From Actomonas aquatica (GTDB lineage: Bacteria; Verrucomicrobiota; Verrucomicrobiia; Opitutales; Opitutaceae): a stretch of 64,000 nt of DNA. The first letter of the stretch is position 1. Every line of letters begins with the position of its first letter. This document shows, one piece after another, positions 10,470 to 45,427 of the stretch. The notes beneath the pieces are model-generated. The model was not told the origin of the DNA. It saw nothing but the letters and a program-made list of their open reading frames with translations, and did not search any database. The stretch is taken from positions 1,550,001-1,614,000 of the forward strand of contig NZ_CP139781.1 in the NCBI RefSeq assembly GCF_019679435.2. The letters run 5' to 3'. The position numbers were made by a program, and so were the translations under genes.

Positions 10470-10790
10470 TCAGTTGATGGTGCCGATGTCGAGCTTCTTG
10501 AGCTTCTGCTTGAGAATCTTGCCCGACTTGAACTTCACCACCGCGCGTTCCGGGATGACCACCTCGGCCGCCGGCTTGTTCGGGTTGCGGCCGATGCGGG
10601 ACTTGCGGCGCTGCACTTCCAGCACACCGAAATTCCGCAGCTCCACGTTGCGCCCTTCCGCCAGCGCACTCATGATGATATCGAGAGTCATCTGGACCGT
10701 CGCGACCACTTCCTTCTGAGGGAAATTGGTCTTCTCGTAAATCTGCAGCACAATTTCGCGCTTCGTGAGGTTCGGGAGATTCGAGGGCAT
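10470..10790 (-). CDS. HU/IHF-family DNA-binding protein
   Basis: A 106-residue nucleoid protein that bends DNA. The C-terminal arm motif RKSRIGRNPNKP carries the intercalating proline of the family, and NLTKREIVLQIY plus VELRNFGVLEV match the dimer core. The start ATG at 10790 is supported by an AAAGGA Shine-Dalgarno about 12 bp upstream, one of the few clear ones here. An alternative start lies 7 codons earlier. Sequence alone does not separate HU from an IHF subunit. It is divergent from the ClpX-like gene across about 100 bp and ends in a strong terminator. Confidence 0.9.
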   Translation of the reverse strand: MPSNLPNLTKREIVLQIYEKTNFPQKEVVATVQMTLDIIMSALAEGRNVELRNFGVLEVQRRKSRIGRNPNKPAAEVVIPERAVVKFKSGKILKQKLKKLDIGTIN

Positions 10791-10889
10791 GAAGGGTGTT
10801 CCTTTCGACAAAAAGTTCGTTTAGTGACCGCAGATCGTTTTCAGAAGTCCTAAAAGGTCAATCGATTAGGACGGATTTACCTAGCAAAA

Positions 10890-12503
10890 ATGAGTGAAAA
10901 ACCTCCACAAGATCCTTTTGAACAACTCCCTAAGCAACTCAGGGACCTATTTAAGAGCTCTCCATTCGGAGGGTCATTTCAATCAGGAGTGACCCCGCCT
11001 GCGTCGGGAAGTTCCTCCCCTGCACCGGATTCTGAGAAAGATCCGCACGCCGAAGTCATCGAGCGCATCCGCAATTTTAACCTGCGCCCGCGGGAGATCC
11101 GCGACCACCTGGACCGGTTCGTGATCCAGCAGAATGAGGCCAAGAAGGTCCTCTCCGTCGCCATCTGCGACCACTACAACCACGTGCGCCGCTGCCTCGA
11201 GGACCCCACCCTCACCGAGCGCGACTACGCCAAGCAGAACATCCTCCTCCTCGGCCCGACCGGCGTCGGCAAGACCTACCTCATGCGCTGCATCGCCCGT
11301 ATGATCGGCGTGCCGTTCGTCCGGGCCGACGCCACCAAATTCTCCGAAACCGGCTACGTCGGTGGAGACGTCGAAGACCTCGTCCGTGACCTCGTGAAGG
11401 CCGCCGATGGCGACGTCGACCTCGCCCAATACGGCATCGTCTACATCGATGAAATCGACAAGATCGCCCAAAGTTCCGGCCCGGCCGGCAGCGGCGGCGG
11501 TCGCGACGTGTCGGGTCGCGGCGTGCAGATCAATCTGCTCAAACTGATGGAGGAAACCGACGTTTCCCTCACCAGCCAGAACGACATCGCCTCCCAGATG
11601 CAGGCCATGATGGAGATGCAGCGCGGCGGCAAACCGCGCAAAAAGACCATCAATACGCGCCACATCCTCTTCATCGTCAGCGGCGCTTTCGACAAACTCT
11701 CCGACCGCATCAAGAAGCGCCTGCAGAGCGCCTCCATCGGTTTTGCCGCCAACCACGGAGATGCCGACAAACCCGACAGCGATTACCTGCGCCACGCCCA
11801 GTCCCGCGACATCATCGACTACGGCATGGAGCCGGAGTTTGTCGGTCGCCTACCCGTGCGGGTCGCCTGCCAATCGCTCGAGCCCAAGGACCTCGAAAAG
11901 ATCCTGCTCACCAGCGAAGGCAGCATCCTGCAGCAATACCGGGCCGACTTCGCCGGCTACAAAATCGATTTCGACATCACGCCCGAGGCCGTCACCGAAG
12001 TCGCCAGCCGCGCGCACCGCGAAGGCACCGGCGCCCGCGGACTCATGACCGTGCTCGAGCAGACCTTCCGCAACTTCAAGTTCGAGCTCCCCTCAACCGG
12101 TATCCGCTCCTTCAAGATCGAAGCCAACACGGTCGCCGAGCCCGAAAAGACCCTGCGCGCCCTGCTGGAGTCCAACGCCGAAAACCAACGCGACGTGCTG
12201 CGCGCCGAAGTGCAGACCTTCGCCGATCGTTTTCATCAGGCTCACGGCTTCACCCTCAACTTCCAGGAAGACGCCATCAGCGCGCTCATCGAGCAAAGCC
12301 TGGAGACCGACAAAACCATCCGCGCGCTCTGCGAGGAACGTTTTCACAACTTCCATCACGGCCTCACCCTGCTCTCCCGCGACGGCACCACGCCGAGTTT
12401 CGACATCACGGCCGACGTCGTGCGCGATCCGGAGAAAGCCCTCTCCAAATGGGTGGTGGAACGCTTCCGCGACAACGAAACCGACGCTCCCGCGGCGTCT
12501 TAA
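10890..12503 (+). CDS. ClpX-like AAA+ ATPase without zinc-binding domain
   Basis: A 537-residue AAA+ unfoldase related to ClpX. Walker A (GPTGVGKT) is at 122-129, the pore-loop motif GYVG at 155-158 and Walker B (VYIDEID) at 184-190. The arginine-finger segment EFVGRLPV and the sensor-2 region GARGLM are also present. The N-terminal C4 zinc finger of true ClpX is missing, replaced by about 55 residues rich in Pro, Ser and Gln. The ClpP-docking tripeptide IGF is kept (283-285). The C-terminus continues about 110 residues past the usual ClpX end. A normal clpX is present at 44141-45427, so this is a paralogue. It could serve ClpP with different adaptors or act alone (inference). Confidence 0.85.
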   Translation: MSEKPPQDPFEQLPKQLRDLFKSSPFGGSFQSGVTPPASGSSSPAPDSEKDPHAEVIERIRNFNLRPREIRDHLDRFVIQQNEAKKVLSVAICDHYNHVRRCLEDPTLTERDYAKQNILLLGPTGVGKTYLMRCIARMIGVPFVRADATKFSETGYVGGDVEDLVRDLVKAADGDVDLAQYGIVYIDEIDKIAQSSGPAGSGGGRDVSGRGVQINLLKLMEETDVSLTSQNDIASQMQAMMEMQRGGKPRKKTINTRHILFIVSGAFDKLSDRIKKRLQSASIGFAANHGDADKPDSDYLRHAQSRDIIDYGMEPEFVGRLPVRVACQSLEPKDLEKILLTSEGSILQQYRADFAGYKIDFDITPEAVTEVASRAHREGTGARGLMTVLEQTFRNFKFELPSTGIRSFKIEANTVAEPEKTLRALLESNAENQRDVLRAEVQTFADRFHQAHGFTLNFQEDAISALIEQSLETDKTIRALCEERFHNFHHGLTLLSRDGTTPSFDITADVVRDPEKALSKWVVERFRDNETDAPAAS

Positions 12504-44140: not shown

Positions 44141-45427
44141 TCAGGCTGCGTTCTTCGAGACATTCTTCGGGGCGCGCCGCAACGAGGGACGGCGCTTTCC
44201 GGCGACCACGGCAGCATCGATCACAACCTCGGCCACATCATCGCGGTCCGGCAGGTCATACATCACTTCCAGCATGATTTTTTCCATAATGGAGCGCAGG
44301 GCGCGAGCGCCGGTCTTCAGGTCGATCGCCTTCTGCGCCACCGCCCGGATCGCATCCGGCGTGAAGCGCAGTCGAGCGCCGTCCATGGCGAAGAGCTTCG
44401 AATACTGCTTCACGATGGCGTTCTTGGTGCGGAGCAAAATCTTCTCGAGATCGGCGATCTGCAGCTGATCAAGCACAGATACCACCGGCAAACGGCCGAT
44501 GAACTCCGGGATCATGCCGAAGCGCACCAAGTCCTCGGGGGCGATTTGTCGCATGATTTCGACGGAATCGAGTTCGACCGACTGATCACGCGTAAATCCG
44601 AGCGAGCGAGCGCCCAATCGCTTCTGAATAATGTCTTCGAGGCCGACGAAGGCACCACCACAGATGAAGAGGATGTTGGCCGTGTTGATCTGGATGTATT
44701 CCTGGTTCGGGTGCTTGCGCCCGCCCTGCGGCGGCACGTTGCAGACCGTGCCCTCCAAAATCTTGAGCAACGCCTGCTGCACGCCTTCGCCCGACACGTC
44801 GCGCGTGATCGAGACATTTTCGGTTGTGCGGCGGATCTTATCGATCTCGTCGACGTAGATGATGCCGCACTCGGCCTTCTTCACGTCATAGTTCGCCGAC
44901 TGCAGGAGTCGCAGCACCACGTTCTCCACGTCCTCCCCCACGTAACCGGCTTCGGTCAGCGTGGTGGCGTCGGAGATGGCGAACGGCACATCCAGAATGC
45001 GCGCGAGCGTGCGCGCCAAAAGGGTTTTGCCAGAGCCGGTCGGCCCCGAGAGCAGGATGTTGCTCTTCTCGACTTCGACGCCGTCGAACTCCGGCGCGAG
45101 CGTGGCGCCGTCACTCTCCGGGCCTTGTCCGTTATCGAAGGCCAGTCGCTTGTAGTGGTTATAGACCGCGACCGAGAGCACCTTTTTGGCGTGCTCCTGC
45201 CCGATAACATGTTCGTCGAGGGTGGCCTTGATCTGCGCGGGCTTGAGGAGGCGGAATGACGGCTTGGACTCGATCGGGCTCTGCTTCGTTTCGCGATCGA
45301 TAATCGTCTTACAGACGTTCACGCACGAGTCGCAGATGTAGACGCCCGGCCCCGCGATGATTTTTTTCACCTCGGTCTGGGATTTACCACAAAAGGAGCA
45401 GAGCGTCATCCGCGACGATTTAGCCAT
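44141..45427 (-). CDS. clpX: ATP-dependent Clp protease ATP-binding subunit ClpX
   Basis: AAA+ unfoldase that feeds proteins to ClpP. The protein has 428 residues. The C4 zinc-binding domain is intact, with Cys at 10, 13, 32 and 35. Walker A (GPTGSGKT), the pore motif GYVGEDVE, Walker B ([10 protein letters not shown]), EFIGRLPV and GARALRS are visible. The ClpP-contact loop reads LGF rather than the E. coli IGF, a known variation. It lies 122 bp after clpP in the order tig-clpP-clpX, but a terminator-like hairpin stands between them. A second ClpX-like gene is at 10890-12503. Confidence 0.96.

Follow-up and report, generated by a model that had tools for sequence, protein, structure and literature searches.

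The genomic window examined in this work, a 64,000-nucleotide stretch of the Actomonas aquatica genome, encodes two ClpX-like proteins. One of them is an ordinary ClpX, in which Pfam finds the zinc domain (zf-C4_ClpX) together with AAA_2 and ClpB_D2-small; its gene adjoins clpP, and the initial annotation had already described it as a normal clpX. The other has no zinc domain and carries the tripeptide associated with docking on ClpP. This raises the question of whether the second protein is a ClpX that has merely been shortened, the partner of another protease, or an unfoldase of a separate kind, and of how it would select its substrates. We consider it likely that it represents a ClpP-docking unfoldase of the ClpX/HslU class with a substrate entry of its own, which would act as a second ClpXP-like protease.

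Architecture of the zinc-free ClpX-like protein

The gene begins with an ATG codon and encodes a ClpX-like AAA+ protein of 537 amino acids (Table 1), in which Pfam recognizes AAA_2 and ClpB_D2-small and does not find zf-C4_ClpX. The open reading frame, its motifs and these matches agree with the initial annotation of a zinc-free ClpX-like protein bearing IGF. The elements that characterize AAA+ unfoldases of the ClpX/HslU class, namely Walker A and B, GYVG, the arginine finger, sensor 2 and the small domain, are all present. In a comparison with solved folds, the best 50 matches listed are ClpX structures, either alone or with ClpP. The same layout is kept in 22 aligned orthologues that share 52–82% identity with the window protein, which argues that it did not arise by chance. 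These orthologues and more distant relatives, 116 members in total falling into two distant branches, are referred to here as the family. The Walker A string GPTGxGKT was not matched in three of them (L148, L150, and L151).

Table 1. Positions, within the window, of the zinc-free unfoldase gene, its parts and associated genes.
Feature	Position	Strand	Basis
Divergent HU/IHF-like gene that recurs as a neighbour in related loci	10470..10811	-	IHF models under their cut-offs
ClpX/HslU-class unfoldase gene, 537 aa	10890..12503	+	ORF, Pfam, orthologue alignment
Partly conserved N-terminal segment replacing the zinc domain, residues about 7–25	10908..10964	+	Pattern count
Walker A GPTGVGKT, residues 122–129	11253..11276	+	Invariant in 22 aligned orthologues
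Pore-1 loop GYVG, residues 155–158	11352..11363	+	Orthologue alignment
Walker B IVYIDE (D187 E188)	11436..11453	+	Orthologue alignment
Rebuilt pore-2/RKH region without RKH motif	11565..11663	+	Motif count
IGF, ClpP-docking tripeptide by analogy with ClpX, residues 283–285	11736..11744	+	Tripeptide count
EFVGRLPV arginine-finger box, residues 316–323	11835..11858	+	phmmer, orthologue alignment
First small AAA+ domain (ClpB_D2-small), sensor-2 GAR R383	11865..12173	+	Pfam, profile comparison
Second small AAA+ domain, tandem duplicate, residues 429–531	12174..12482	+	hhalign, family model, AF2
Ordinary zinc-domain clpX	44141..45427	-	Pfam, ClpX models
clpP1, presumed partner; second clpP elsewhere in the genome	45550..46173	-	Profile match

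The lack of the zinc domain extends to the other family members examined. When whole frames were searched, a CxxC...CxxC pair preceding the AAA+ domain was found in 46 of 46 ClpX proteins, but in 0 of 113 family members, these being the ones whose Walker A motif the script located (L148, L150, and L151 lie outside this count). The N-terminus had been called low-complexity, which is true of the variable linker that extends to about residue 55, but the protein begins with a short segment that is partly conserved. The helix-like pattern of this segment is present in 47 of 71 members of the window's own branch, compared with 227 of 5800 shuffles, and in only 5 of 45 members of the other branch. 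In some rows of the latter, a differently worded segment of the type KELEKE.S.YLSKKYG was noticed by eye. AlphaFold2 places a helix at residues 13–22, with low confidence.

The pore is also altered in part. GYVG is retained in the family rows printed, with GYMG in four relatives of the same genus. The RKH pore loop, termed unique to the ClpX family in a published account (PMC12383707), was counted in 49 of 49 ClpX proteins, in 0 of 19 HslU proteins, and in 1 of 116 family members, as a lone RKH string shown by L036. In the family, its position is occupied by a D...Q-rich stretch.

At the other end of the protein, the initial annotation had noted about 110 extra residues. They are indeed present, and their nature can now be specified as a duplicated small AAA+ domain. 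In a profile comparison with hhalign, residues 429–531 match residues 326–428 with an E-value of 2.7e-14 (probability 98.2) and the ClpX small domain with 1.2e-7, while five control segments of the family give values of 0.094–0.39; the Pfam small-domain model matches the first copy only and not residues 429–531. Because the second copy is nearer to the first copy of the family than to ClpX, the comparison suggests that it arose within the family. A model of the second domain derived from 73 members detects it at E <1e-3 in 113 of 116, including 40 that were not used in building the model. In the AlphaFold2 prediction (22 sequences, mean pLDDT 70.6, with ten-residue means of 72–89 over residues 421–530), the second copy repeats the element order of the first. 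The fragment modelled alone (62 sequences, pLDDT 83.4) resembles the small domains of ClpX (mostly residues about 313–410) and HslU with middling Z-scores of 6.5–8.2; in a Foldseek search, its best 50 matches listed are all ClpX or HslU, with E-values of 0.025–0.16 only. Since the structural scores are middling and the Foldseek values weak, the case for duplication rests mainly on the profile match.

The second small domain is absent from L036, L057, and L188, and thus it is not indispensable. One of these, L036, is a protein of 430 amino acids from a 0.9-Mb genome (G030); it ends before the second small domain and retains IGF. The suggestion that the protein has its own substrate entry stands as a reading, but the proposed location of this entry in the C-terminal part has lost ground, as that part is a small-domain copy which three of the 116 members lack. 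The entry could equally well, or better, lie in the N-terminal segment or in the rebuilt pore-2/RKH region.

The feature that connects this protein with ClpP is the tripeptide. A docking loop of the ClpX [IL]GF type stands in its proper position, and phmmer aligns the IGF of the window protein with that of a ClpX of known structure. In ClpX, residues of the IGF loop are reported to insert into clefts of ClpP (PMC12383707). The tripeptide [ILMV]GF was found in 114 of 116 members across both distant branches (IGF in 81, LGF in 16, MGF in 12, and VGF in 5), and the same script detected it in 45 of 49 ClpX and 1 of 19 HslU proteins. Loss of IGF in orthologues, named beforehand as the observation that would speak against docking, did not occur. 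Across the 116 members, R277, G284, and F285 are each 98% conserved, while residues 279–282 and 286–299 reach at most 48%. The members without the tripeptide are L057 and L188, which constitute a single branch and have neither the GF loop nor the second small domain. Conservation of the loop with loss in one side branch is what one would expect of a loop that serves a function.

Presumed ClpP partner and gene neighbourhood

The genome of A. aquatica (6.1 Mb, one contig) contains two strong ClpP matches and one more that is weak. In the window, no clpP lies beside the gene of the zinc-free protein; the second ClpP of the genome is encoded at G000:C1:1908291-1908815 (L010), away from clpX. Four proteins match AAA_2 at E 1e-10 or better, these being two large Hsp100 proteins, ClpX, and the zinc-free protein. 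The genome has no match to PF00227, the proteasome/HslV family, and because no such gene was found, ClpP is the likely partner. From the conserved tripeptide, together with the failure to find any other partner, we infer that the protein docks on ClpP.

The following mode of action is a proposal. Six subunits would form a ring, the GYVG pore loops of which would pull the substrate through by means of ATP hydrolysis, while the [ILMV]GF loops would dock in the hydrophobic clefts of the same ClpP that ClpX uses; the docked unfoldase and ClpP would then together constitute a second ClpXP-like protease. As the zinc domain and the RKH loop are absent, adaptors of ClpX and ssrA-like tags would not be read in the ClpX manner. 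The N-terminal segment, along with the rebuilt pore-2 region, may form the route by which substrates enter, and the duplicated small AAA+ domain would probably pack on the ring as a stabilizing or partner-binding collar.

The co-occurrence of the family with ClpP was followed in other genomes. ClpP is present in 33 of 34 family-carrying genomes checked; in the exception, G089, an assembly in 90 contigs, neither ClpP nor a zinc-type ClpX was found. A second ClpP of more than 200 bits occurs in 11 of 34 carriers versus 15 of 46 non-carriers and is thus not associated with the family. Two small genomes, G071 of 915,884 bp and G092 of 917,278 bp, are each assembled into one contig and are 99% complete. 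Each has one ClpP, and a search with the ClpX model at E 1e-5, with stops read through, found no zinc-type ClpX in either. The sole match to that model in each genome (L190 and L191, respectively) is the family member, which scores 297 bits, under the ClpX cut-off, and has VGF. Both genomes also encode a ClpC-type protein with an LGF loop, so their retention of ClpP needs no family member. The idea of a parallel ClpP-coupled unfoldase, put forward from the start as an inference, is consistent with the conserved GF and with these two 0.9-Mb genomes, in which ClpP and a family member occur and zinc-type ClpX was not found. It is thus probable that some bacteria possess a second disposal machine of the ClpXP kind, fed separately from the first.

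Gene neighbourhoods offer a different kind of evidence. Among 55 neighbour loci, in six of which the family gene itself was missed by the search string, the gene is frequently flanked, in the taxonomic order to which A. aquatica belongs, by a divergent HU/IHF-like gene (12 of 55, the window's own copy having been dropped by an overlap rule), a hisS/hisZ-like gene (10 of 55) and a ubiE-like gene (8 of 55), the last two kinds being named by eye. A dedicated operon was sought in the own phylum and not found in these 55 loci, where neighbours change between groups.

In the phylum of G179, the Desulfobacteraceae genome that carries L062, gene order is strongly linked to siroheme-dependent heme synthesis. 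Forty loci were taken from 142 carriers, 20 of them near the top score and 20 lower, most on long contigs. In 24 of the 39 loci with sufficient room (L351–L389), an ahbC or hemB gene of the same strand starts no more than 400 bases downstream of the family gene, as measured between open frames and with ahbC, hemB, and ahbD models built from the few named loci; ahbC is found in 21 of them and hemB without ahbC in 3, while 15 of the 39 have neither. The link is present in 8 of 19 loci near the top score and in 16 of 20 further down. The order ahbC-hemB-ahbD was seen in seven linked loci, and ahbC followed by hemB in three more. Of the five named non-verrucomicrobial loci, four have ahbC or hemB downstream: ahbC is the next gene in L059, L062, and L063, hemB lies 652 bases on in L060, and L058 has none. 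The family gene and the heme genes form same-strand runs at L062:7699-11897 and L063:7773-11055. Scores above the NCBIfam cut-offs identify 12,18-didecarboxysiroheme deacetylase, porphobilinogen synthase, and heme b synthase in L062, the first of these enzymes in L063, and the second in L060.

These heme genes, in the sampled phylum as in four of the five named loci, would suit another explanation, by which the protein is a stand-alone remodelling chaperone that activates or dismantles particular enzymes, for example those of heme synthesis, with ClpP docking being secondary. Mitochondrial ClpX sets a precedent, as it is reported to activate ALA synthase by partial unfolding (PMC7077987). However, a chaperone working free of ClpP would not need GF, which is retained in all 40 members examined from the phylum of G179, and no heme gene was recognized by eye among the recurrent verrucomicrobial neighbours. 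We therefore regard this explanation as unlikely and keep to the ClpP-docking protease.

Ancestry and distribution of the family

The window protein misses the cut-offs of both ClpX equivalog models (347 versus 359, and 306.7 versus 370.75) and of the HslU model (197 bits versus 362.45). The first of two trees comprised 144 rows, of which 76 were from the family, 49 from ClpX, and 19 from HslU; three fragments, duplicate loci and, in the larger sets, alternate ClpX rows had been removed beforehand. In it, the three formed separate groups with SH-aLRT values of 97, 99, and 100, respectively, with the caution that the long HslU and ClpX branches meet. A second tree was built from 335 well-filled columns of 91 rows (45 family, of which 20 belong to the 40 members fetched later; 36 ClpX; and 10 HslU). 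It gave bootstrap/SH-aLRT values of 97/91 for the family, 100/99 for ClpX, and 100/100 for HslU, and divided the family into a verrucomicrobial side (20 rows, 99/96) and another side (25 rows, 100/100). In both trees, the clade of the window protein lies outside the ClpX clade and the HslU clade. Of the columns that reach 75% conservation in each of the three families and differ between them, 15 are ClpX-like, 3 are HslU-like, and 7 are the family's own, every third family row being used in this comparison. Since the trees separate three groups and the columns agree, the family is, as judged from its sequences, a third subfamily of the ClpX/HslU class, nearer to ClpX in letters. The description of the protein as ClpX minus its zinc domain thus has to be abandoned.

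The same trees bear on the possibility that the protein is an ordinary, redundant ClpX paralogue whose zinc domain was lost recently. Its 42% identity to the genome's own ClpX over residues 57–425 would fit such an origin, but the family forms a long-stem clade outside ClpX, verrucomicrobial ClpX groups within ClpX and apart from the family, and the family is conserved in two distant lineages; this makes the paralogue very improbable, and a recent ClpX duplicate was rejected on the trees, unless long-branch effects have misplaced the family. An HslU-like partner of an HslV-type protease, to which the 197 bits and the three HslU-like columns might point, is hardly credible and was rejected, given a score under the cut-off of 362, the lack of any PF00227 match in the genome, the separate clade, the retained GF loop, the 15 ClpX-like columns, and the separate HslU over cut-off in each of the five named non-verrucomicrobial carriers.

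A viral origin was also rejected. In the best 80 of 437 relatives from viral contigs, the best segments are 34–42% identical, and none of these 80 extends past residue 434, so that a second small domain is not seen in any of them. Among phage records, 0 of 140 cover 80% of the query.

A match of at least 490 bits to the window protein is present in 25 of 38 relative genomes, where the ClpX tier ends at 225 bits; G003 and G037 contain fragments only, and 11 have no match above the ClpX tier. In the own phylum, 34 of 145 sampled genomes have a match of at least 590 bits, the ClpX tier ending at 314. G153, the genome of L188, carries a second family match of 493 bits, and beside L188 it encodes a full-length, IGF-bearing member. 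In the phylum of G179, 142 of 297 genomes reach at least 505 bits, and the six second-tier matches listed score at most 382; 31 of the 142 matches stop short of model position 490 of 524, as the C-terminal end has diverged further in this phylum. Further named carriers are one Victivallales and one Desantisbacteria record. In the phylum of Kushneria, 0 of 299 genomes reach E 1e-140 in a search made without a positive control.

Taken further, these data could be read as a third ClpP-coupled single-ring class of two distant lineages with a doubled small domain. Its sulfate-reducer-type members would be co-transcribed with the siroheme-dependent heme pathway and dedicated to it, activating or clearing AhbC, HemB, or AhbD, and the class would have replaced ClpX in some reduced, symbiont-size genomes. 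We put forward this extended version tentatively, and as a whole it is rather doubtful.

In bacteria, the class is usually regarded as consisting of just ClpX and HslU. A third long-lived subfamily, in which the ClpP-docking loop is kept and the known substrate-reading parts are replaced, would allow the substrate-choosing parts of ClpX to be told apart from the docking parts by a natural comparison, and could show how a ring makes use of a duplicated small AAA+ domain. In sulfate reducers, heme synthesis may also prove to be subject to a layer of proteolysis or remodelling. Because the family members score only slightly below the ClpX cut-offs, some of them may carry the plain label "ClpX" in annotated genomes.

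Comparison with known systems

Our literature search, from which subscription journals were mostly absent, found no paper on this subfamily or on a link between ClpX and ahb genes. The closest known relative is ClpX (TIGR00382 / NF003745), with which the family shares the AAA+ core, GYVG, the IGF loop, EFVGRLPV, the closest fold, and most columns. In contrast to ClpX, it has neither zinc domain nor RKH loop, possesses a second small domain, forms a separate clade, and scores below the cut-offs. With HslU, or ClpY (TIGR00390), it has in common the AAA+ class and the absence of both the zinc domain and RKH, whereas it differs in keeping the GF loop, in its separate clade, and in that HslV was not found in the A. 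aquatica genome.

Another protein that resembles the family is ClpX3 of Myxococcus xanthus (MXAN_2743), likened here by its description only. It is reported to lack the N-terminal domain and RKH and to be 43.54% identical to E. coli ClpX, and its deletion mutant reportedly grows more poorly at 36 °C (PMC11423568). Among phenotypes, this is the only one that might concern the subfamily. The reported activation of ALA synthase by mitochondrial ClpX (PMC7077987) is likewise an instance of a ClpX-class unfoldase tied to heme synthesis. It involves a true ClpX and another enzyme, whereas the tie of the family to heme consists in gene order and concerns the other phylum only.
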